IMG/VR virus record: IMGVR_UViG_3300009433_001898
Coordinates: 1 to 45,995 of that record
From: a virus
Reading direction: 5' to 3' (one strand)
Length of the DNA: 45,995 nucleotides
The notes below the pieces were generated by a model. That model searched no databases, had not been told where the DNA came from, and saw only the letters and a program-made list of their open reading frames with translations. Positions within the stretch are counted from its first letter, which is position 1. Each line of letters opens with the position of its first letter. Below, one piece after another: positions 5,719 through 45,240 of the stretch. The translations under genes and the position numbers were made by a program.

Positions 5719-8017
5719 TGCAGGCATCACATTCAGATTCTTCTCCCATAGATTCAATCTCAGAAAGAATACTGTTAGTATCAGATGTTACTACAGGTTC
5801 TTCTTCCCCGTCTTTTTTATTATCATAAGTATTCTGATAATAAGAGGTCTTCCAACCATACTTATATGTAGTTAAAAGATCATTTGCCATTACAGTCAGT
5901 GGGACTTCATTGTTTGGATAATTTTCAGGATTGTAACTCCAGTTTCCACTGATTGCCTGATCGAAGAACTTCTGCATAATTGCAACGATCTTAATATACC
6001 CTTCATTAGATTTCATATCCCATAGAAGAGTATAGTTATTCTTCAATGTGGTGAAAGACGGAACAATCTGCTTAAGAGGTCCCTTCTTTGATTTTTTAAC
6101 GGACAGGTATGCTCTAGGTGGTTCAATTCCATTGGTTGCATTTGACACAACGGAGCTGCTCTCCGAAGGCATCTGTGCGGACAGTGTGCTGTGTCGCAGT
6201 CCGTACTCATTGATAGATGCGCGAAGACTCTCCCAATCATAATTTAATTCTGGCGATACAATTTCATCTACTTCCTTTTTATAAGTATCAATTGGAAGAA
6301 TTCCATCACAATACTTAGTCCTATGGAATGCTTCACATGGACCCTTCTCTCTAGCAATCTGGTTAGAAGACTTCAGAAGATGGTATTGGAATGATTCAGT
6401 AAGATCATAAACTAATTTATGAGCCTTAGGATCATCATAATGCTCACCATTCTTTGCTAGGTAGTGTGCTAGACCGATAAATCCAATGCCTAGAGAGCGT
6501 CGTGCAAGGGTGCTACGACGTGCTGCAGAGACAGGGTAGTCTTGGTAATCAATCAACTCTTCTAGACCCCTCACAGCGAGATCACAAAGGTTTTCCAACT
6601 CATCCAGTTTAGAAATCTTACCTACATTAATAGCAGAAAGAATACAAAGAGCAATCTCACCATCAGAATCATCAATATGACGGATAGGATCTGTAGGTAA
6701 AGTGATCTCCTGGCAGAGGTTACTCATATTCACCTTATCTTTAAAGGAGGAGTGACTGTTGCAGTGATCAATATTCATGATGTAAATACGACCTGTCTCT
6801 GCTCTTTCTTTCAAGAGACTTAAGAAGAGCTCTTGAGCTCCGATTGTGGTGCGAGGGATTCCAGCATCTGATTCGTAAGCACAGTAGAGACTGTCAAAGT
6901 CATCAGTCCCGAAAGTATCATAAAGACCAGGGACATCATGAGGACTGAAAAGTGAAATCTCTTTGTTGTCGATGAAACGTGCATAGAATAGTTTTGAAAT
7001 TTGGATTGAGTAGTCAAGTTTCCTCACGCGATTATCTTCAGTGCCCTTATTATTCTTAAGGACTAGGATGTCTTCTATTTCTTGGTGCCAGATAGGAAAG
7101 TGAACTGTAGCAGAACCACCTCTGATGCCGTTTTGAGTGCAGCATCGTACAGTTGATTCAAACTTTTTAAGGAAGGGGACCACGCCTGTGTGCTGTACCT
7201 CTCCGCCTCTGATTTTAGAGTTGATGCCACGGACTCTACCTGCGTTGATACCGATTCCTGCGCGTTGTGCAACGTAGTAACCAATAGCCATATCACTGCT
7301 AAAGATACTATCGAGGGTGTCATCAACATCAACGAGAACACAACTCGCAAACTGACGGAGAGGCGTTCGCACTCCTGCCATGACGGGGGTTGGAATGTTG
7401 ATTCTGTGTCTGGAGATGGCATCGTAATATTTCCTAATGTATTCTAGTCTCGTCTCTTGTGGATAGTCTCTGAAGAGAGTCAGAGCAATCATGATATACA
7501 TCTGTTGCGGTGTCTCAAAGACTTTACCATTACTACGATCTTGAACAAGATATTTATCAGAAACTTGTCTCAGTCCAGCATAAGTAAACAGGAAATCTCT
7601 ACTGTTATCGATCATAGAATCGATTTCAGTCCACTCATCATCAGTATACTTATCAAGAATACTGCTGTCATAGATTCCCTTGTCAACACAATCCATAACA
7701 TGGTCATGTAAGTATGGACGGAAGTCTGGATGATCTCCATACACAGACTTACGAAGACCAAACAAAAGCAAACGTGCTGCGACGAATTGATAGTTTGGTG
7801 CTTCTAATGATATCAAATCATTAGCAGATCGAATAAGAATCTCTTGAATATCTTCCGTCTTAATACCATCAAAGAATTGGAGATTGGCATTCATTTCAAC
7901 TTGTGATTCAGATACACCTGCAAGATCTTTACAAGCGTGCTCTACCATCACATGAATTTTTTCTAGATGGAGTGCTTCAACTCCACCACTACGCTTAACA
8001 ACACTGATCCCACTCAT
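5711..8017 (-). CDS. nrdA: Class Ia ribonucleotide reductase, alpha subunit
   Basis: This 768-residue large subunit holds the active and allosteric sites. It begins with an ATP-cone-like segment (VVKRSGGVEALHLEKIHVMV), giving overall activity control. ASCVLVDVDDT contains a redox-active Cys, NLCQEITLPT is the Asn-Cys-Glu catalytic motif, and the C-terminal CDACNV is the swinging-arm dithiol. The ATG at 8017 shares an ATGA with the primase stop and is preferred to one 12 nt upstream. The protein feeds dNTPs to the phage replisome and is comparable in length to T4 NrdA (754). Confidence 0.97.
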   Translation of the reverse strand: MSGISVVKRSGGVEALHLEKIHVMVEHACKDLAGVSESQVEMNANLQFFDGIKTEDIQEILIRSANDLISLEAPNYQFVAARLLLFGLRKSVYGDHPDFRPYLHDHVMDCVDKGIYDSSILDKYTDDEWTEIDSMIDNSRDFLFTYAGLRQVSDKYLVQDRSNGKVFETPQQMYIMIALTLFRDYPQETRLEYIRKYYDAISRHRINIPTPVMAGVRTPLRQFASCVLVDVDDTLDSIFSSDMAIGYYVAQRAGIGINAGRVRGINSKIRGGEVQHTGVVPFLKKFESTVRCCTQNGIRGGSATVHFPIWHQEIEDILVLKNNKGTEDNRVRKLDYSIQISKLFYARFIDNKEISLFSPHDVPGLYDTFGTDDFDSLYCAYESDAGIPRTTIGAQELFLSLLKERAETGRIYIMNIDHCNSHSSFKDKVNMSNLCQEITLPTDPIRHIDDSDGEIALCILSAINVGKISKLDELENLCDLAVRGLEELIDYQDYPVSAARRSTLARRSLGIGFIGLAHYLAKNGEHYDDPKAHKLVYDLTESFQYHLLKSSNQIAREKGPCEAFHRTKYCDGILPIDTYKKEVDEIVSPELNYDWESLRASINEYGLRHSTLSAQMPSESSSVVSNATNGIEPPRAYLSVKKSKKGPLKQIVPSFTTLKNNYTLLWDMKSNEGYIKIVAIMQKFFDQAISGNWSYNPENYPNNEVPLTVMANDLLTTYKYGWKTSYYQNTYDNKKDGEEEPVVTSDTNSILSEIESMGEESECDACNV

Positions 8018-9009
8018 ACTTTTTTCCACTGAATAAACTTAACTTGTGCTTCCATACCTGAATAGGTATTCGATTTTACTATACTTTGGACATCTAGTCC
8101 AGCTAACACCATGTCATTGATGTCCTTTTGTTTTATCTGACTTGGCCAGATTACCACCTGCTCTTTGTTTCTTATAGTAGTCTCGAGCCTCTGCACGATC
8201 TGCGTGTTTCTGGGTTCATTATCGTATACCCAGACCCTATATCGATAATCAAGAGAGCGGTGGTCAACATCGCTGCCACACATAGCAACAGAGTTGTCAA
8301 TGAAATGGGAGTCGAAGGGTCCTTCCGTGACATAAACAGTTTCCTCAGGATTAATTTGATCTTGTCCATATAGTTTGAGTCTATCGTCAAACATAATGGT
8401 TATGTATCGTAGCGTTGCATTTGGAGACAGAGATCTACCCTGAATACCAAACCAGTTGCCATCTGAATCTATGAAAGGGATAATAATTCTAGGTCTATCA
8501 TTCTGAAGATTGTCAAAAGAGTTTGGTTTTTGTGTATTGACCCAACGCTTAAACCTATCAGTATAATATAAAGACTGTAGTTTATTCTGAGGAATTTTCC
8601 TACCCTCTAGGTATGCCCTTGCTGGATGCTCACTATTTAGCTCTGTGATTGGTGTTAGGTTTGATACCTTATTAGCGAAGTGTGGTTTTGCAGACTTATA
8701 TTCTGGATTGGGAGTATACCTTCCACGCCCTGTGGTGCCATTCTTATACTTCTCCATGATGAATTGGTCATGGAGATCAGGAGCATGATCTTTTAAAAAA
8801 TTAGACAGAGATCTACCAGTGCTACAGTTATGGCACTTGAAAATATACTCTGATTTTTTTAAGAAAAAGTATCCCCTTGCTTTATTCTTGTGCTTCTGGG
8901 AATCTCCACAGTATGGGCACCTGAAATTGTAAAGACCATTCTTTACATGTTTAAATTTCTCTAGACGTGTGCTGAGAAACCTGACGTATTTGTCCTCAAC
9001 GTAGTCCAT
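8014..9009 (-). CDS. 61: DNA primase (gp61)
   Basis: This 331-residue protein makes RNA primers at the fork together with the gp41 helicase. It has an N-terminal zinc-binding domain, CPYC (31-34) and CHNC (59-62), then a linker and a TOPRIM-like catalytic domain with VYVTEGPFDSHFI (Glu) and VWVYDNEP (Asp). T4 gp61 is 342 residues. The gene overlaps the preceding gene by 49 nt and nrdA by 4 nt, so it is expressed with nucleotide-supply genes. Confidence 0.93.
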   Translation of the reverse strand: MDYVEDKYVRFLSTRLEKFKHVKNGLYNFRCPYCGDSQKHKNKARGYFFLKKSEYIFKCHNCSTGRSLSNFLKDHAPDLHDQFIMEKYKNGTTGRGRYTPNPEYKSAKPHFANKVSNLTPITELNSEHPARAYLEGRKIPQNKLQSLYYTDRFKRWVNTQKPNSFDNLQNDRPRIIIPFIDSDGNWFGIQGRSLSPNATLRYITIMFDDRLKLYGQDQINPEETVYVTEGPFDSHFIDNSVAMCGSDVDHRSLDYRYRVWVYDNEPRNTQIVQRLETTIRNKEQVVIWPSQIKQKDINDMVLAGLDVQSIVKSNTYSGMEAQVKFIQWKKV

Positions 9010-9392
9010 TTACTAGATCTCACTTCAGGTATCTTAACCGAAGTTTTATCATCTGTCAAGGTACGCAGCAATGCTTGACCTGGCGAACTGATTATGACTG
9101 AGATCACAGTCAATGCACCTGCAACTGTCCACATCTTTTTCTCCATTTCCCTGAGTCTATTATCTACAAGACGAATGTCTCTCTCACATCCTTTCTTGAT
9201 TATGTCTGTCTCCTTAGTGAGATCTGAATGAAGTCTATCTATTTTTTCAAATAGAATTCCATCAACTTCACTCTGTGTAGATAATTTTTCATTATGTACA
9301 GCAAGTAGTTGACCCATCTTTACAGAATTATCCTGCAACGAATCAACTACTCTTTCTAGTCTTTCTAAAATAGCAGAGTTTATATCTGACAT
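8961..9392 (-). CDS. Coiled-coil protein with one membrane segment, 143 aa
   Basis: Residues 1-90 form a long charged helical/coiled-coil region (AILERLERVVDSLQDNSVKM; IDRLHSDLTKETDIIKKG; RLREMEKKM), followed by a single hydrophobic helix WTVAGALTVISVIISSPG and a polar tail. The layout (cytoplasmic coiled coil, one TM, short tail) is seen in small phage proteins of unknown role in cyanomyoviruses. Its end overlaps the primase start by 49 nt, an unusually long overlap here. A lysis-accessory or scaffold role is possible but unsupported. Confidence 0.7.
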   Translation of the reverse strand: MSDINSAILERLERVVDSLQDNSVKMGQLLAVHNEKLSTQSEVDGILFEKIDRLHSDLTKETDIIKKGCERDIRLVDNRLREMEKKMWTVAGALTVISVIISSPGQALLRTLTDDKTSVKIPEVRSSKWTTLRTNTSGFSAHV

Positions 9393-9769
9393 TATTCTAT
9401 CCCTAGTGCCTTTTGTCTTTTATTCCAATAAAATTTAATAACATCATTAGGATATAGTCTTTTAACTTTTAACTTCTTAAAATTTTCTGGGCGATAAATC
9501 TTTCTCAGTTCAATCTTCAATGCAGATTCAGATTTATTGTATAGCACATATTGCTCCGCCCCATCATAAGAAATTAGAAACGGATAGTATGTGCTTGCCT
9601 CTTGACCCTCCGTCTTAACCATGTCCTTCTGAGACATAGCATACCTACGCCTTTTCTTCGGACCTTTCTTGGTTAGCATTGGATCAAATCCCGATACGGG
9701 ACCTTGGGGATCAGCGGATCCGCTGAAACCACCATCACCTGCAGACATAGTTGGCGCTTCTTCATTCAT
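9392..9769 (-). CDS. Probable virion protein with gp23-like N-terminal arm, 125 aa
   Basis: The N-terminus, NEEAPTMSAGDGGFSG followed by GPVSGFDPMLTKKG, closely parallels gp23 at 45.1 kb right at its predicted processing site (NEAAPTNSLGGTGFSG, then GPVAGFDPVL). After a basic linker (KKGPKKRRRYAMS) comes a beta-rich domain (YYPFLISYDGAEQYVLYN; NDVIKFYWNKRQ). I infer a head component that shares an assembly or docking arm with the major capsid protein. It shares an ATGA with the preceding gene and lies in the putative late region. Confidence 0.75.
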   Translation of the reverse strand: MNEEAPTMSAGDGGFSGSADPQGPVSGFDPMLTKKGPKKRRRYAMSQKDMVKTEGQEASTYYPFLISYDGAEQYVLYNKSESALKIELRKIYRPENFKKLKVKRLYPNDVIKFYWNKRQKALGIE

Positions 9770-10134
9770 ATGCTTCTAAGTTGCAGAGCAACTTCAGTGT
9801 CGATACTTACATTAGAAAGACACCCTGCAATCTCTGGATATCTCTCCAGATAAATTAAGAATGTCTTGATGATTGACCAATATTCTTCTTCTAATTTGTA
9901 CATTAATAATGGAATAGTCCCATCATTAAATACATTGAAAAGAATAATAAGGTGATTTAGTATTAAGTTAACACGGAGGACCCGAGTCTTAGTATATCGT
10001 TTAAGTAACCGTTTAAGATACTTAAACTTTTTCATGTCCTCCATGAAATCGTCAACTGTAACTGATTGTGGATTATCGTAATGCTTAATAGCAAACATTA
10101 AATAATTTTTTTCATCTAGATTTTCAAAATGCAT
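9766..10134 (-). CDS. Conserved helical phage protein, 122 aa
   Basis: This is an all-helical small protein (FEDMKKFKYLKRLLKRY-type basic helix, then RVLRVNLILNHLIILFNVF and EEEYWSIIKTFLIYLERY). I believe homologues sit at the same position in other T4-like phages of this group, but no function is known. The hydrophobic stretch is not long enough to be a clear membrane helix. It ends in an ATGA overlap with the gp23-arm protein, so the two are co-expressed. Confidence 0.75.
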   Translation of the reverse strand: MHFENLDEKNYLMFAIKHYDNPQSVTVDDFMEDMKKFKYLKRLLKRYTKTRVLRVNLILNHLIILFNVFNDGTIPLLMYKLEEEYWSIIKTFLIYLERYPEIAGCLSNVSIDTEVALQLRSI

Positions 10135-10150
10135 TACGAATCAGTTAATA

Positions 10151-10771
10151 TTATGTGCCGAATGTCAATGTCGCTGCACCATCGGTGATCACTTCTTCCG
10201 TGCCACCCGCTGAGGTAATCTTGACGCGATACTTATAGCCGTCCAGAGTGTCAGCAGCGAGACCACTGTAAGCAAGAGTTGCGGTCGTGAAGTCTGCATA
10301 AGTTACACCAGCGTCAAGAGATGCAGTAATGTTAACCCAACGGGTCGTTGCTGCTGCGGTCTGACGTTGCCAGACATAAGACAGAGCACCAGGTGTGCCT
10401 GTGGTAGTTGTGGTAAGGGTGAATGTACCAGCGCCAGAGGAAGAAGTAGAATTAGCAGGTTGTGCTGAAACTGTTACAGCAGATGCAACGTCTGCTGCGA
10501 TGGTGTCATCTGTTTGTGTCTCGGTGCCATCAGGATTAGAGATGAAGGCAAGTTGCTCTGCCTTATGGCGAGTGTCACCATTGGCAGTGGTGTAAGTGCT
10601 GTATGCCCACCAACCAGGACTACAAAGTCCCCGAGTCTTATTCTCGTTTAACTCTGCTTCTGCAGCATCAATAAACACAATTGTCTCGGAAACGGATCCG
10701 CTACCGTTACCACGGGCGAGTCCTGCTTGAGTTTTATTTGCGTTACTGTCAGTTCTCCCGTAAAGAGACAT
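10151..10771 (-). CDS. Ig-like domain virion protein, 206 aa
   Basis: The N-terminal part (MSLYGRTDSNANKTQAGLAR, then an aromatic SPGWWAYSTYTTANGDTRHK) is a domain that recurs in cyanophage virion proteins. Residues about 95-206 form an Ig-like domain: VTVSAQPANSTSSSGAGTFT, then LSYVWQRQTAA with the buried Trp, and YKYRVKITSAGGTEEVI. The analogy is to surface-exposed capsid decoration proteins such as T4 Hoc, whose Ig domains may aid weak adhesion. A TATAAATA late promoter lies 27 nt upstream of the ATG, supporting late expression. Confidence 0.85.
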   Translation of the reverse strand: MSLYGRTDSNANKTQAGLARGNGSGSVSETIVFIDAAEAELNENKTRGLCSPGWWAYSTYTTANGDTRHKAEQLAFISNPDGTETQTDDTIAADVASAVTVSAQPANSTSSSGAGTFTLTTTTTGTPGALSYVWQRQTAAATTRWVNITASLDAGVTYADFTTATLAYSGLAADTLDGYKYRVKITSAGGTEEVITDGAATLTFGT

Positions 10772-10798
10772 GGTTTACTCCGTTAATTCCAGTATATT

Positions 10799-10806
10799 TA
10801 TTTATA
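10799..10806 (-). promoter_or_regulatory. Late promoter TATAAATA
   Basis: An exact copy of the T4 late -10 box (TATAAATA) lies 27 nt before the ATG of the Ig-like protein, immediately downstream of a terminator. This is the spacing expected for a gp55/gp45-dependent late promoter, which needs no -35 element. Confidence 0.82.
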
Positions 10807-10808
10807 AT

Positions 10809-10828
10809 AAAAGGGGCTTCCGCCCCCT
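10809..10828 (-). terminator. Rho-independent terminator
   Basis: On the minus strand GGGGC-GGAA-GCCCC followed by TTTTATT forms a GC-rich stem directly after the stop of the 66-aa gene. It insulates that gene from the late promoter just downstream. Confidence 0.85.
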
Positions 10829-10833
10829 AAGTA

Positions 10834-11034
10834 TCACGCCTTGCGACTGTTGATTGATTGCTCAACAACGGCAAGAAGTTTGTCATCCATATCAGTCTTG
10901 GTCAGAGTAACTGCTTTCTTGAGGATGATCAAACAAATCTCGACTAGTTTCTCGCCAAGTTCTTCATTATCAGGGACTTTTGCAACAGCATCAGAAATGA
11001 TTTTCGATGCCAGTGGTAGTAGAAAAGATAGCAT
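10834..11034 (-). CDS. Small helical protein, 66 aa
   Basis: The N-terminus is amphipathic to hydrophobic (MLSFLLPLASKIISDAVAKV) and the remainder is helical (EKLVEICLIILKKAVTLTKT). It could associate with membranes but lacks a clear long TM helix. It sits between a late structural group and a terminator. I do not recognise a family. No strong ribosome site is visible before the ATG at 11034. Confidence 0.65.
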   Translation of the reverse strand: MLSFLLPLASKIISDAVAKVPDNEELGEKLVEICLIILKKAVTLTKTDMDDKLLAVVEQSINSRKA

Positions 11035-11066
11035 GGTCAGACAATAGATACTCTGATCTATATATC

Positions 11067-11468
11067 TTACTTCATGCCCTTAGCTTTACGATCATGATCG
11101 ACCGTTGCCTGAATCATCTTCTGCTTCATGCGATCTTTCGATTTTGTTTTTGCTTCTGAGTCATCAGACTTAGGTGCCTTCATATCTTCAGGAGTAGCAT
11201 CACACTCTTCCTTTTTGACATCCTGACCAGGCTCATACCATTTGCCATCGCCGTCAGAGTCTTGCCAACGCTTACCTGCTTTAGCAGCAGCGATGTGCTT
11301 CTCTTTTGATTTCTTCTTTGCTGCTTCTTTCAAGTCAGCAACGCTTCCCTGTAGGCGCTTTCTTAAATTTTCAGACATGAGATCTTCTTTCTTAGGATTG
11401 ATAATTACGTTTCCTTTCTTAGAGGTTTTTAGATATGAATCTTCACTACTCTTGCCGTTGGGTTTCAT
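11067..11468 (-). CDS. Lys/Asp-rich protein with Ca-binding-like loop, 133 aa
   Basis: This very charged, probably disordered protein contains KRWQDSDGDGKWYEPGQDV at residues 67-85. The DSDGDGKWYE loop matches the calcium-binding DxDxDG pattern of EF-hand and Excalibur-type loops. Flanking regions are Lys/Glu-rich. It shares ATGA with the preceding gene and belongs to the presumed late structural group. A role in the virion (metal-stabilised, or bound to DNA) is plausible but only inferred. Confidence 0.75.
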   Translation of the reverse strand: MKPNGKSSEDSYLKTSKKGNVIINPKKEDLMSENLRKRLQGSVADLKEAAKKKSKEKHIAAAKAGKRWQDSDGDGKWYEPGQDVKKEECDATPEDMKAPKSDDSEAKTKSKDRMKQKMIQATVDHDRKAKGMK

Positions 11469-12346
11469 TGCATACCCTCCACCATGCTCAACAATTCTGC
11501 TTCAGTAAACAGTCCAGAATCAGACAGTTTAGTCAGAAAATCCTGCTCTTCTTTCTTCAGTGCTGCTTTACGGAACTGAAGATCAATGCGTGATCCTCTG
11601 TCCATCTTACCCTGACTTGCAGGTTTCTTAGAACCACCAGCAGGTTGAGGACCAGCATCGCTACCAGTTCTTCTACCCTGAGCATACTTAGATCCACTGG
11701 ACTTAGAGTCACCAGAGATCATCTTACCAGCATCAGAGCGACCATCTTGATACTGCTTCTCAGTCTGACCGTGCTTACCTTTGTAGAGTTCACCCAACTC
11801 TTCTTCTTTGACACAATTGTTAACTTCTTTACCACCCTTTTTCTTGGTGCCTTGCTTCTTGTATCCTTTCCAGCAGGAGGTAAACCCATTATCATCTTTG
11901 CCATCCATCTTAACTTCAAGCATTTGCTGATGAAGATCTTCGATATCAATACCAATTGCTTCACGCTGCATGTTGAGACCAATATCACCAGGATCTTTAG
12001 CAGACTTCTCGCCTTTCTTACCTACAACAATATAACGACCATCTGATTTCTTACCAGTAATGACAAAGGAGGATCCACCAGACTGGACAACACGACCTAC
12101 ATTACGGTCATCAGAAAACTTTTCTTTCTTTTTCTGAATTTGATCCTTGTCAACAGGGAATCCAGCATACCCTTCAATGGTAGGCTCCCAGTCATCAAAG
12201 ATCTCTGTTACTTTCTCAGCACCCTCTTTCAATCTCTTGGACGGGAGATCAGATTCTGTGCCAGCTTCAATTGAAGCAAGGATTTTGGTCTGCTCTTCCA
12301 TCGTGTAAGACATCAAGGCAGAAGATACAAGAATTTCTAAGGTCAT
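11465..12346 (-). CDS. Probable virion/internal protein, 293 aa
   Basis: I do not recognise a defined family. The N-terminal third is helical and acidic, the middle is basic (KKQGTKKKGGKEVNNC) and the region 190-260 is low complexity with repeated GRSDAG/GRRTGSDAG-like elements and Gly/Ser/Lys. It has sites of the form L-x-E followed by Gly/Ala (RLKEGAEK), compatible with the T4 prohead protease. A late promoter CTAAATAG lies 29 nt upstream of the ATG at 12346. An alternative ATG at 12313 is possible. I infer a late head-associated protein. Confidence 0.75.
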   Translation of the reverse strand: MTLEILVSSALMSYTMEEQTKILASIEAGTESDLPSKRLKEGAEKVTEIFDDWEPTIEGYAGFPVDKDQIQKKKEKFSDDRNVGRVVQSGGSSFVITGKKSDGRYIVVGKKGEKSAKDPGDIGLNMQREAIGIDIEDLHQQMLEVKMDGKDDNGFTSCWKGYKKQGTKKKGGKEVNNCVKEEELGELYKGKHGQTEKQYQDGRSDAGKMISGDSKSSGSKYAQGRRTGSDAGPQPAGGSKKPASQGKMDRGSRIDLQFRKAALKKEEQDFLTKLSDSGLFTEAELLSMVEGMQ

Positions 12347-12375
12347 TGTTTTTGGTCGAATGGTTTTCGATATTA

Positions 12376-12383
12376 CTATTTAG
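12376..12383 (-). promoter_or_regulatory. Late promoter CTAAATAG
   Basis: CTAAATAG overlaps the stop codon (TAG) of the upstream nucleotidyltransferase gene and lies 29 nt before the ATG at 12346. The core TAAATA matches the T4 late box. Confidence 0.7.
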
Positions 12384-13470
12384 ATACGGAGATATTTCTA
12401 ATCTCATGATTAAAATCACAAAACTTTTTGGTTGCTTGACCAGGAGTCATGTTTTGTAATGCCTCTCGGTAAGCATCAGTGCCAATCTTCCAAGTATTTC
12501 CACTGCCATCATCGGCAGATTTGTTTGATTGATTTCTGGCAATAGGATCTGAAGTAGCAACTTCTGTTATATGCTGCAACCATGCACGATGTTGTCCATC
12601 ATACTGATCTTTAAAAATAATATAATTTGGTCCCCGATGTATAACTTCACCACGGACACCACTATCATCATGCTCTACAATAGCCCCCACCTTAAAGATG
12701 TGATCGAGCATGTAGTGATCACGGAATGCCTCATAATCTAATATGGGAGCATACTCCCAAACAGATTGCTCATGAATTTCACTTTTCTTTTTACTCGCTT
12801 TCGGTGGTGGTGTCATACCTTTGATGACATCATCCATCATTGCTTTACTGTGCTTTGCGCTGAATCCTTTGGGCATACCAGCATGGTAGGAATCATGATC
12901 CCCAGATTGAGCATGGTCTCGCATCTTGCTGGCAGAAAGATTTTCAATAGGATCATCGGAGTCATCAGACCTAGCGCCAGCAGACTTAATATTAATGGAC
13001 TTGAAAGCATAGTGCTTACCATTATATTTGGATGTAAGTTTTTCAAATTCCTTTACTCGATCATCACCAACCACCATAGTGACATGCTCATGACCTTCAT
13101 CATGCAAGTCTCTAAGAACATCAAAGATATTCTTGTGTGCTTCGTTGTTTTGAATCTTGTCTGCGTGATGCTTAAACATCTTACGCATATGATCTACTTT
13201 TTGATTAGGATGTAGAGGATTTTTCTTATGGTCCTGGCTTCGGCTGGGGTAGATACGGTAATTACCCGAGTCGCCCGAGTGCGCTTTGACCGCATCCAGT
13301 AACTTACCATGACCAGCGTGGGGAGGATTAAACCTACCAAAAGTAATGGCGACATGTTTGTCTTCTAATTGTTTACTTTGTGCGGAAGATGATTTAGCAC
13401 CCTTCGATGAAGTAGCAGGTTTCTTAGTAGCAGTTTTTGTTGCTTCTTTCAAAAATTGAATAAATTTCAT
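12376..13470 (-). CDS. HxGH nucleotidyltransferase with capsid-targeting-like N-terminus
   Basis: This 364-residue protein has a Rossmann-like nucleotidyltransferase domain at about residues 38-215. It contains TFGRFNPPHAGHGKLLDAV with the HxGH motif at 51-54, MVVGDDRVKEF, and the ISSTxIR-type motif as ENLSASKMRDHA. The family joins NMP groups to pyridine, phosphocholine or similar acceptors (NadM/NadR-like). The first residues MKFIQFLKEA resemble the T4 capsid-targeting peptide of internal proteins and fit the prohead protease rule (L-x-E, then Ala). A Lys/Ser linker follows. The C-terminal domain (WEYAPILDYEAFRDHYMLDH; VRGEVIHRGPNYIIFKDQYD) is of unknown role. The substrate is not identifiable. 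Confidence 0.85.
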   Translation of the reverse strand: MKFIQFLKEATKTATKKPATSSKGAKSSSAQSKQLEDKHVAITFGRFNPPHAGHGKLLDAVKAHSGDSGNYRIYPSRSQDHKKNPLHPNQKVDHMRKMFKHHADKIQNNEAHKNIFDVLRDLHDEGHEHVTMVVGDDRVKEFEKLTSKYNGKHYAFKSINIKSAGARSDDSDDPIENLSASKMRDHAQSGDHDSYHAGMPKGFSAKHSKAMMDDVIKGMTPPPKASKKKSEIHEQSVWEYAPILDYEAFRDHYMLDHIFKVGAIVEHDDSGVRGEVIHRGPNYIIFKDQYDGQHRAWLQHITEVATSDPIARNQSNKSADDGSGNTWKIGTDAYREALQNMTPGQATKKFCDFNHEIRNISVSK

Positions 13471-14666
13471 TTGCCCCAGTCTTTTGCTACGGTAAAGTTT
13501 GCTCTAGAAAATTCTAATCTATCGACGAGTTTGATAGCAGTGCCATCTTTGATGGCAACAAATCCCTCAGGACTCGTGACACGGTAACCATTCTCATCTT
13601 CTAGGAAGGTGCCAACACCCTCAATCTTATTAAGTTTATTAATCACCTGCTCCTTAGCAGAAATGAGTCCTTTGAATCCACTGAGTGCGTGGATCATTAC
13701 AGACTTATTACTATTTAGATAAGACAGAGCTTTAGTTTTACGATCATTCCATTCCTTCTGTGCTTTCTCAGTTTTTTTCTTCTTAATCTCCTCATCATAC
13801 TTTTTAATTACAAAGGCACCATACCCTGCAGCAATACCATTGGCATCAGGGACTGTATTACCACCACGAATAACTTGATTAAAATATACCTTGAATAATG
13901 CAGGGGGAGAGAATGACTGTGGACCTTCTGTTTTCTGTATGTCATCTAAGAATTTCCTACCCATCTTCAGAGATCTATCTGCAGCAGCAATGGATCGATT
14001 CAAATTATTAACCTCACCAGGGGTTAGATTTGCCATGCCGTTGACATTCTCAAAGGTAGATGAGAAGACAGCAACATCTTTGACTCCCTGCATACCACTG
14101 ACATTGACACCGAATCCAGCACTCATTTCACCAATAGTATCACCTGAATATGTGGTGTGAAATACGATACCCAGCTTACTAGAAGCAACCTTCTTACCCA
14201 ACTCAGAGTACTTAGGAATCACATAAGTGATGGTGTTGGGTTTGAATCTGTAGCATGGTTGTCCCCTCATCGCAATGACATCAGGACGTTTAGTATAGAG
14301 CAGATCTCCCTGCACAACTCCCTTAATGGGCACCTTCTTCAACTGGTCTAGACACTGCTTCATGATCGGATTAAGACTACCACTATACCAGTGGTCAATG
14401 TCAGCATGAGAATAACAAATCTTAGGGGTTGTCTTGTTGAAGACAGACTTGTTACCTACAAAGAAGAGACCAGTCTCAGGGTCAGTGCCACAGATAATAG
14501 CAGGAGCACCGTCCCACTTGACAGTCACCTTAGTGTTGTTACCACCCTTTCCAGAAGACAGCATGTCCCTGAGGGACTGCAGAAAGTTGAGAGCGTTGGT
14601 AGCACCAGCGTATCCTTGGTTAAAGATGTCGTCTTCTAGGTGCTCTAGGTGTGTGTTTTTTGCCAT
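13467..14666 (-). CDS. DUF6267-like protein with ligase-type KxDG motif, 399 aa
   Basis: This looks like a phage family usually left as a domain of unknown function (I recall DUF6267). I note motifs of the covalent nucleotidyltransferase (DNA/RNA ligase, capping enzyme) superfamily in the right order: TVKWDGAPAIICG (KxDG, Lys50 as candidate for adenylation), GVVQGDLLYTK (117-126, motif III position), IVFHTTYSG (167-175, IIIa-like), and near the C-terminus EGFVAI (367-372, motif IV) and IKLVD (378-382, motif V). About 190 residues separate IIIa and IV, more than usual. It shares ATGA with the HxGH nucleotidyltransferase gene. A ligase or RNA-modifying activity is my inference. Confidence 0.75.
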   Translation of the reverse strand: MAKNTHLEHLEDDIFNQGYAGATNALNFLQSLRDMLSSGKGGNNTKVTVKWDGAPAIICGTDPETGLFFVGNKSVFNKTTPKICYSHADIDHWYSGSLNPIMKQCLDQLKKVPIKGVVQGDLLYTKRPDVIAMRGQPCYRFKPNTITYVIPKYSELGKKVASSKLGIVFHTTYSGDTIGEMSAGFGVNVSGMQGVKDVAVFSSTFENVNGMANLTPGEVNNLNRSIAAADRSLKMGRKFLDDIQKTEGPQSFSPPALFKVYFNQVIRGGNTVPDANGIAAGYGAFVIKKYDEEIKKKKTEKAQKEWNDRKTKALSYLNSNKSVMIHALSGFKGLISAKEQVINKLNKIEGVGTFLEDENGYRVTSPEGFVAIKDGTAIKLVDRLEFSRANFTVAKDWGK

Positions 14667-43872: not shown

Positions 43873-45240
43873 TCACATGAGGTTGGTAACCTTAACGCGA
43901 CGGTAGTAGCGGTTGAGGTTAGCATTGAGAGCGCCTTGACCCTGTGTGAGACCTTCAGCGAAGGGATTTGCGACCATGCCGTAGCGGGTCTTAAATCCGA
44001 TCTTGGGTTGGAAGGTGTCCTGACCCACTGCACGGACCATCTGGAGAGGCACGTAAGGGCAGTAGAAGAGACCTGCGTCATAAGCACTGCTGCCTTTGTA
44101 ACCAGACACGTAGAAGTGGTTATCGGAAACGTTAGCAGAGTAAGGATCGACATACACCTTGATGCGACCGTTGAGGGTGCCCACCAGAGTGGAGGAGTTG
44201 TCGTCAACTTGACCCAATCCACCAACAGCACCAGAGATGCCACTGGAGTAGTCGAGCACGCCAGCCATGGAGAGAGCAGATGCCACATCAGCAGAGCAGA
44301 TGAGGATGTTGCCTTTCCCGCGACGAGTCTCATGACCGATTGCATTCATGTCTCTCTCAATTTGGAAGAGAAGACCTTTGAATTTCTCAACAGACCAGCG
44401 ACCGTTGGAGTCAACGTCGAGGTCAAACGTGCCTGCAGTTGCAGTGTTGTTCTGAGCACCAGGACGAGCAATCTTGTAAACAGTACGGACAACCTCACGG
44501 TTGATCTCTGCCAGCACTTCAGTGCTGAGGATGTTTGCAAGCTCGCTTTCGGCATCCAGACCATGGACTGCCTTAAGGTCCTGAGCAAGCTCAAGACTGT
44601 ATTCTGCTTTCAGAGCGCGTGACTTCGCAGTAACGGTGACCTTCTCGATCGAGAAGCCCATTTCGTTGAAGTGGTTGGAAGCGCCATCACCCAGTGCTTC
44701 AGACTGAGCGGTTGTCATGCCCTGACCACCAATGGTGTAGTTACCAGCAGCGTCAGCAAGCAGACCAGGATTAGATCCAGTCTGAGTGTTGGATGCAAGA
44801 CCGTTTGCACTATTCTCGGAAGAATGCTCAGAGTTAGCTTCGTTGAAGAATGCCTCAACAGCACTGTTGTTGATGTCTCTGTTGGTGCCCTGTGTGGAGC
44901 GCATCGCGAAGATGAGTCCAGTAGGACCTGTCATAGGCTGGACGCCACAGATGTCATAAGCAATAAGCTTAGGCATCGAGCGACGGATGAGACTGATCAG
45001 CACAGGGTCGAAACCTGCAACAGGACCAGTTGCGGTGCTACCGCCACTGAAACCAGTACCGCCCAAGCTGTTGGTAGGTGCTGCTTCGTTGATCATCCCA
45101 CGCTCTTCGCGGAGGAAATTTTCTTGGTTTTCCAGGAGGACCGAGGTAACCGCCTTTCTGTATGAATCCTTAATAGGATCGAGCTCCGAATGCTCAAGAA
45201 TGGGGTTCCACTTTTCCTGGAGATGTTCTGCGTTAAACAT
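43873..45240 (-). CDS. 23: Major capsid protein (gp23)
   Basis: This 455-residue protein is the hexamer-forming capsid subunit with HK97 fold (MPKLIAYDICGVQPMTGPTG; YGMVANPFAEG; RRVKVTNLM). T4 gp23 is 521 residues. The N-terminus MFNAEHLQEKWNPILEHSEL acts as a scaffold-like delta domain. A prohead-protease site is evident at GMINE-AAPT (I-x-E then Ala), so the mature form should begin at Ala53. The following GGTGFSGG...GPVAGFDP arm is shared with the 9392-9769 protein. A strong terminator follows. Confidence 0.97.
   Translation of the reverse strand: MFNAEHLQEKWNPILEHSELDPIKDSYRKAVTSVLLENQENFLREERGMINEAAPTNSLGGTGFSGGSTATGPVAGFDPVLISLIRRSMPKLIAYDICGVQPMTGPTGLIFAMRSTQGTNRDINNSAVEAFFNEANSEHSSENSANGLASNTQTGSNPGLLADAAGNYTIGGQGMTTAQSEALGDGASNHFNEMGFSIEKVTVTAKSRALKAEYSLELAQDLKAVHGLDAESELANILSTEVLAEINREVVRTVYKIARPGAQNNTATAGTFDLDVDSNGRWSVEKFKGLLFQIERDMNAIGHETRRGKGNILICSADVASALSMAGVLDYSSGISGAVGGLGQVDDNSSTLVGTLNGRIKVYVDPYSANVSDNHFYVSGYKGSSAYDAGLFYCPYVPLQMVRAVGQDTFQPKIGFKTRYGMVANPFAEGLTQGQGALNANLNRYYRRVKVTNLM

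Follow-up and report, generated by a model that had tools for sequence, protein, structure and literature searches.

How does a phage-encoded nucleotidyltransferase come to be part of the phage particle, and could its first ten residues be the address that sends it there? The question is raised by a stretch of DNA of 45,995 nucleotides, in the following called the window, whose source is an IMG/VR virus record with T4-like genes. At positions 12376..13470 lies the gene of an HxGH nucleotidyltransferase of 364 residues (P0001; phrog_395, T4-GC190 family); these coordinates had been given exactly in a preliminary description of this DNA, which left the strand unstated; it is the minus strand. 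The assignment is based on the ORF and on profile matches: the profile of phrog_395 (cyanophage cytidyltransferase) covers residues 34-352 with an E-value of 5.7e-90, and PF01467 (CTP_transf_like) matches with an E-value of 2.9e-7. Among named phages, the closest enzymes belong to S-WAM1 and P-TIM40 (73%) and to S-SZBM1 (70%); all three phages are Kyanoviridae.

Architecture of the enzyme

The translation of the ORF begins with MKFIQFLKEATKTATKKPATSSKGAKSSSAQSK... and contains GRFNPPHAGH and SASKMRD further on; the start MKFIQFLKEA and both motifs, which had been reported before, are all present. Residues 1-10 (13441..13470, minus strand, as are all features of this gene) constitute a capsid-targeting-like leader, which is recognised by its invariant positions and by a helix in the AlphaFold model; a cut is predicted between codon 9 (Glu, 13444-13446) and codon 10 (Ala, 13441-13443). 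A Lys/Ser/Thr linker (residues 10-36, 13363..13443) follows, which is disordered according to AlphaFold and variable in sequence and length in the clade alignment. The model has a helix at residues 3-14 and low confidence at residues 16-31, in agreement with the leader helix and the disordered Lys/Ser linker proposed previously. Invariant columns and a fold match delimit the catalytic domain (residues 37-220, 12811..13362) with GRFNPPHAGH, NPL...K...M, GDDRV, and SASKMR. A five-strand barrel in the AlphaFold model, a C-terminal SH3/KOW-like module (residues 245-303, 12562..12738), is encoded by a stand-alone gene in P-HM2 and Syn1.

The leader and the T4 rules of targeting and cleavage

For the internal protein IPIII of T4, ten residues suffice for packaging; according to mutations, targeting depends on residues 4 and 7 and processing on residues 8 and 10, and the prohead protease gp21 cuts after L/I-x-E (PMC9026906). 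In the T4 record, IpII and IpIII start with MKTYQEFIAEA and IpI starts with MKTFKEFTSTT; the earlier statement that internal proteins begin with the former peptide holds for the first two, but not for IpI. The conserved positions of the enzyme leader coincide with the aromatic pair, I/L, and Glu in the IPIII map: the aromatics F3 and F6 correspond to IPIII positions 4 and 7, and FLKE|A at the leader end is an L/I-x-E followed by a small residue, as in a gp21 site. It also fits the cut rule as previously worded (L/I-x-E, then A, G, or S), and a site of the same class exists in the major capsid protein of this phage. The latter, gp23 (43873..45240, minus strand), contains the predicted gp21 site MINE|A (E52), which aligns with FLTE|A of T4; the local prohead protease should therefore accept such sites. 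A gp22-like ORF, recognised by reading only, lies at the contig edge (45279-45986), and the position of the gp21 gene would fall past the contig end; in S-SZBM1, both gp21 and gp22 are annotated. The window phage shares with T4 IPII and IPIII the leader logic M-K-x-[FY]-x-x-F-[IL]-x-E-A, the cut rule, and a T4-type gp23. In contrast to T4, where the cargo is a small internal protein, the cargo is here a folded, two-domain enzyme, and the leader of the window clade has one residue fewer ahead of the first Phe.

Conservation of the leader and comparison with chance

A first collection, drawn from 80 viral contigs plus nine additional sequences, yielded 55 distinct N-terminal regions, and the leader occurs in all 55 distinct enzymes of the same architecture. 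A leader-derived peptide pattern was one of six patterns in the first homologue search and one such pattern was used in the Syn9 search; the rest were independent of the leader, and the search for P-SSM2 homologues used none derived from it. Among the 50 sequences of the window clade, F3, F6, E9, and A10 are 100% invariant in the protein, and the codons at invariant leader positions swap synonymously (TTT/TTC, GAA/GAG, GCA/GCT); positions 2, 4, 5, and 8 vary, and position 7 is occupied by I or L alone. The alignment of the wider two-domain family contains the leader in slightly relaxed form in 64 of 65 rows. In these 64 rows, the first position is F (63) or L (1), the second is always F or Y, and L/I/V and then Glu follow in all cases, in register with the aromatics; this Glu is followed by A (32), E (11), S (9), or T (9). 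The homologue alignment proposed in the preliminary description has thus confirmed that the leader is kept. Relaxed forms are also present in a distant set, which was found with the leaderless P-HM2 query. As E, T, D, or N often follows the Glu in distant relatives, targeting may persist there without cleavage, or cleavage may be less strict than targeting. In HTVC008M, the leader looks decayed in both proteins.

The motif [FY]xx[FY][IL]xE[AGS] has a single match in the window (six-frame ORFs of at least 60 residues), which is located at residue 3 of the enzyme. The S-SZBM1 proteome contains five matches in 49,507 residues, three of them at residue 3-4 of a protein; shuffling the S-SZBM1 N-termini 2000 times gave a mean of 0.0065 matches and a maximum of 1. 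Across 12 genomes, two leader DNA patterns matched 14 times and the reversed control not once. Nine of these 14 matches are the nucleotidyltransferase, in nine of the nine genomes possessing the two-domain enzyme. The leader motif is more than a chance occurrence.

Presence of homologues in virions

The cyanophage virion protein annotated as cytidylyltransferase/NMNAT (T4-GC190, phrog_395) is orthologous to the window enzyme. It was detected by mass spectrometry in S-SM1 (PMC3037559), in S-SZBM1 at a low level (S-SZBM1_140; 2 peptides, 13.5% coverage, emPAI 0.26; PMC9146016), in S-SCSM1 (S-SCSM1_91; PMC9602691), and in S-CREM2 (S-CREM2_154; three peptides; PMC10665884); PMC9602691 cites S-CBWM1 virions as containing it, too. 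The N-termini are MKKFSAFLNEA (S-SM1), MRFRQFIIEA (S-SZBM1_140, the enzyme 70% identical to that of the window), MKSFLQFLKEA (S-SCSM1_91), and MKNFSSFLTEA (S-CREM2_154). Hence, all four virion-detected homologues carry the leader, in proteomes which are those of relatives of the window phage and which report co-purification, with inside and outside of the particle being indistinguishable. S-CREM1, whose enzyme has the leader, is represented by a shallow proteome of 14 proteins, in which the enzyme is not mentioned. The proposal that the enzyme is packaged, for which a virion proteome had been named as one check, is supported by these four proteomes and by the leaders of the homologues.

For S-CREM2, a regular expression was used that had been fixed before this phage was examined, V and L starts also being allowed. 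It matches three of the 218 proteins, namely gp6 (SAM lyase), gp14 (kinase), and gp154 (nucleotidyltransferase). All three are non-structural and were detected by mass spectrometry (Fisher p 0.012 overall, 0.0022 among non-structural proteins). With a looser expression, six of nine matches were detected, which is weaker evidence, because this expression was chosen after some of the proteins had been seen.

The leader could instead be an N-terminal helix that folds against the enzyme or regulates it and is unrelated to packaging, the virion enzyme being carried over from lysates. Carry-over is conceded by proteome authors themselves (PMC9602691), and in distant relatives the leader directly precedes the first strand. 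Among cyanophages, however, a spacer of about 18 to more than 100 residues (18-31 in the window clade) lies between leader and catalytic domain, and the low AlphaFold confidence of the linker also argues against a helix packed onto the enzyme. Moreover, the same leader is found on unrelated folds, and detection, repeated in four independent proteomes, goes along with the leader. We regard this alternative as improbable.

The virion presence of the enzyme was already known. The available text of the proteome papers noting virion presence names no targeting signal and reports neither a cleaved N-terminus of the cyanophage enzyme nor its injection, and a search of the open-access literature gave no previous account of a leader that would explain this presence.

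Genomic context

The enzyme gene is situated between gp41/mazG and nrdA, and replication genes adjoin it. This location would suit a leader by which the enzyme docks to some other late complex (e.g. the sliding clamp or the replisome), with virion presence as a by-product. We consider such a function very unlikely, since residue pattern and N-terminal position are those of the T4 internal protein leader, and a docking peptide would not need the P3 and P1 residues of the cut. In addition, head genes belong to the same cluster, and the proteins S-SCSM1_89 to _93, which flank the enzyme in that phage, are annotated as virion proteins. The downstream neighbour in the window (11465..12346, minus strand) is a homologue of S-SZBM1_139, a basic protein detected in virions.

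The upstream neighbour (13467..14666, minus strand) encodes a DUF6267 protein of 399 residues. Its stop overlaps the enzyme start by four nucleotides (ATGA), and the two genes are therefore probably translated together. In S-PM2, DUF6267 is fused to the enzyme, and this fusion, together with the pairing of the genes, suggests a joint task. In S-SCSM1, no DUF6267 occurs among the proteins adjoining the enzyme, which can thus work without an adjacent partner gene. Residues K50, D52, G53, E367, G368, V370, K379, and V381 of DUF6267 are invariant in 68 sequences; the ligase-like motifs KxDG, EGxV, and KxV appear in this order (KWDG, EGFV, and KLV in the window copy), and a helical insert comprises residues 216-346. 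Foldseek gave a best E-value of 0.57 with no ligase among the 50 matches listed, Pfam gave no ligase match, and hhalign against T4 RnlB gave a probability of 0.2%. We therefore do not classify DUF6267 as a confirmed RNA/DNA ligase-like enzyme; a ligase-like covalent nucleotidyltransferase is a lead provided by its motifs. Co-packaging of DUF6267 in the window clade was likewise discarded: the protein is leaderless (MAKNTHLEHLED), and the virion proteins listed for S-SZBM1 do not include S-SZBM1_141.

Predicted activity

The invariant motifs of the enzyme are G-R-x-N-P-P-x-x-G-H and S-x-S-x-x-R, which we take to be of adenylyltransferase type. The HxGH fold and the signature S-x-[ST]-x-x-R of NMN/NaMN adenylyltransferases are both found, and S-x-S-x-x-R together with NPL...K...M is presumably of the NadR/NadM type. 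The signature of CTP-type enzymes is RTxGIS, which is absent from the enzyme; given the SASKMR motif, a true CTP-type cytidylyltransferase is unlikely despite the widespread use of this word in annotations. The enzyme thus resembles NadR, NadM, and NadD in its Rossmann-like HxGH domain, in S-x-S-x-x-R, and in the fold match, and differs from them in scoring below all curated cut-offs and in possessing leader, linker, and C-terminal barrel.

The sole sequence match in the PDB is the archaeal NMN adenylyltransferase MJ0541 of M. jannaschii (E-value 0.097). With the AlphaFold catalytic domain, Foldseek matched NaMN adenylyltransferase and phosphopantetheine adenylyltransferase (PPAT) almost equally (E-values near 1e-5). 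The NCBIfam scores are far below the NMNAT cut-offs (TIGR00482: 27 bits versus 112; TIGR01526: 18 versus 341). On the basis of NCBIfam, PDB sequences, and Foldseek, NMN/NaMN is not separable from phosphopantetheine as substrate. Of the earlier suggestion of NAD- or nucleotide-related chemistry, the HxGH domain and the fold stand, whereas the NMNAT family cut-offs are not reached. The enzyme may well be packaged as proposed and still catalyze a different reaction, i.e. transfer a nucleotidyl group to phosphopantetheine, FAD, or a sugar or alcohol, possibly jointly with DUF6267. Besides the Foldseek and NCBIfam results, the adjacency of DUF6267, its fusion in one case, and its invariant motifs are in favour of this alternative; the NadR/NadM-type motifs, the match to MJ0541, and the missing RTxGIS speak against it. 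We deem it quite possible without preferring it. Judging from motifs and the structural model, NMN/NaMN adenylylation is the most likely activity, with about an even chance of being correct.

The leader on unrelated proteins

Proteins whose folds are unrelated carry the leader (SAM lyase, kinase, DUF6267, adenylate kinase-like), as do small unrelated proteins and two P-loop kinase-like proteins, indicating that the tag moves between unrelated proteins. The matches include 24 DUF6267 ORFs; DUF6267 starts with the leader in many non-cyanophage relatives, among them uncultured ones and a Methylophilales phage. It is absent from the S-PM2 enzyme-DUF6267 fusion and from forms consisting only of the catalytic domain (P-HM2, Syn1, jumbo phages). 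In the enzymes of P-SSM2 and S-SCSM1, a second N-terminal module, LGLxxDGHGxWxD...AKTxxGxL, follows the leader; in S-CREM2, the LGLxxDGHG module occurs only in gp12 and gp14, both of which are virion proteins. These two (positions 7704-10313 and 10579-12846 of our locus L353) combine a leader-like peptide with the DGHG module, as do nucleotidyltransferases of other clades. For the annotation of gp12 as Cas9(-like), no Pfam family was found.

We lean slightly towards reading F-x-x-[FY]-[IL]-x-E as a portable address tag in general use among marine T4-like phages, namely cyanophages, Methylophilales phages, and their uncultured relatives; it would mark a hidden set of enzymes delivered with the DNA. 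The tagged set would then comprise the NMNAT-like enzyme, SAM lyase, an APH-like kinase, an adenylate kinase-like protein, a zeta-kinase-like P-loop protein, DUF6267, and others.

Several further proteins are worth recording. A small conserved family (MKSFKSFLSESVNISGDFNGNLYINS...; L106, 1501-1827; L372, 9215-9535) has a perfect leader beside virion genes and does not appear in published mass spectrometry lists. S-SZBM1_191, which is of the MKSFKSFLSESVNISGDFNGNLYINS type, and S-SZBM1_192 (OL473597, 122311-123125; L085) adjoin virion genes; both have perfect leaders and are absent from the published virion list, which weighs against the targeting model. S-SZBM1_194 (OL473597, 123252-125375), a basic protein of 707 residues near head genes, contains at residue 542 the internal motif ITYREFIAEG, which is nearly identical to the T4 leader and possibly an internal site of the prohead protease. 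Members of the DUF5824 family (about 80 residues; L331, 4254-4502; L291, L310, L286) are encoded by a separate gene with a leader and share GLAxKAxKSG...RPGTTPQQWGxARVNSF; as DUF5824 also matches eight of 65 two-domain enzymes, some phages seem to have it fused to the enzyme.

A different kind of resemblance concerns the capsid protein. In the window, a protein of 125 residues (9392-9769, minus strand; phrog_696, major head protein) reproduces at its start the mature N-arm of gp23 from the same phage (MNEEAPTMSAGDGGFSGSADPQGPVSGFDPML; 19/32 identical, E-value 1e-5); a basic tail follows. The virion-detected gp160 of S-CREM2 likewise copies the N-arm of its own major capsid protein (18/24, E-value 2e-8), and a similar copy was noted by eye in the virion protein S-SCSM1_97. 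The hypothetical T4 protein gp61.1 (54 residues; AF158101, 18966-19130; L370, 967-1131) starts with the leader MKTFKEFIKE and matches residues 57-93 of T4 gp23, which span the gp21 cut site and the N-arm (17/37, E-value 6e-9); it is probably the T4 counterpart of these mimics. The leader motif is also matched by the propeptide end of T4 gp23 (FGSFLTE|A).

Discussion

We consider it likely that the leader is a T4-type capsid targeting sequence and that packaging, cleavage at FLKE|A, injection, and nucleotidyl transfer follow in turn. This model is derived from the conservation of the leader at positions mapped in T4, from the four virion homologues bearing it, and from its presence on unrelated virion enzymes. 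The first nine residues would act as the targeting sequence: the enzyme would be made during infection, and the helix F-x-x-F-[IL]-x-E would draw it into the scaffold core of the prohead, where gp21 would cut FLKE|A. The mature enzyme would start at Ala10, with its basic, flexible tail among the packaged DNA. In the next infection it probably enters the host with the DNA, and nucleotidyl transfer could start at once; NMN or NaMN would most likely be adenylylated, giving NAD or a related product.

Proteome papers have reported a cytidylyltransferase or NMNAT in cyanophage particles and left its entry route unstated; a tag of ten residues would explain it. From the tag a rule could be deduced, according to which N-terminal residues alone would tell which proteins enter the host from a marine phage as infection begins; if the tag is indeed portable, the injected proteome would be readable from sequence. 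If the chemistry of the enzyme is NAD synthesis, the phage would arrive able to rebuild or redirect the NAD of its host before any gene is expressed.
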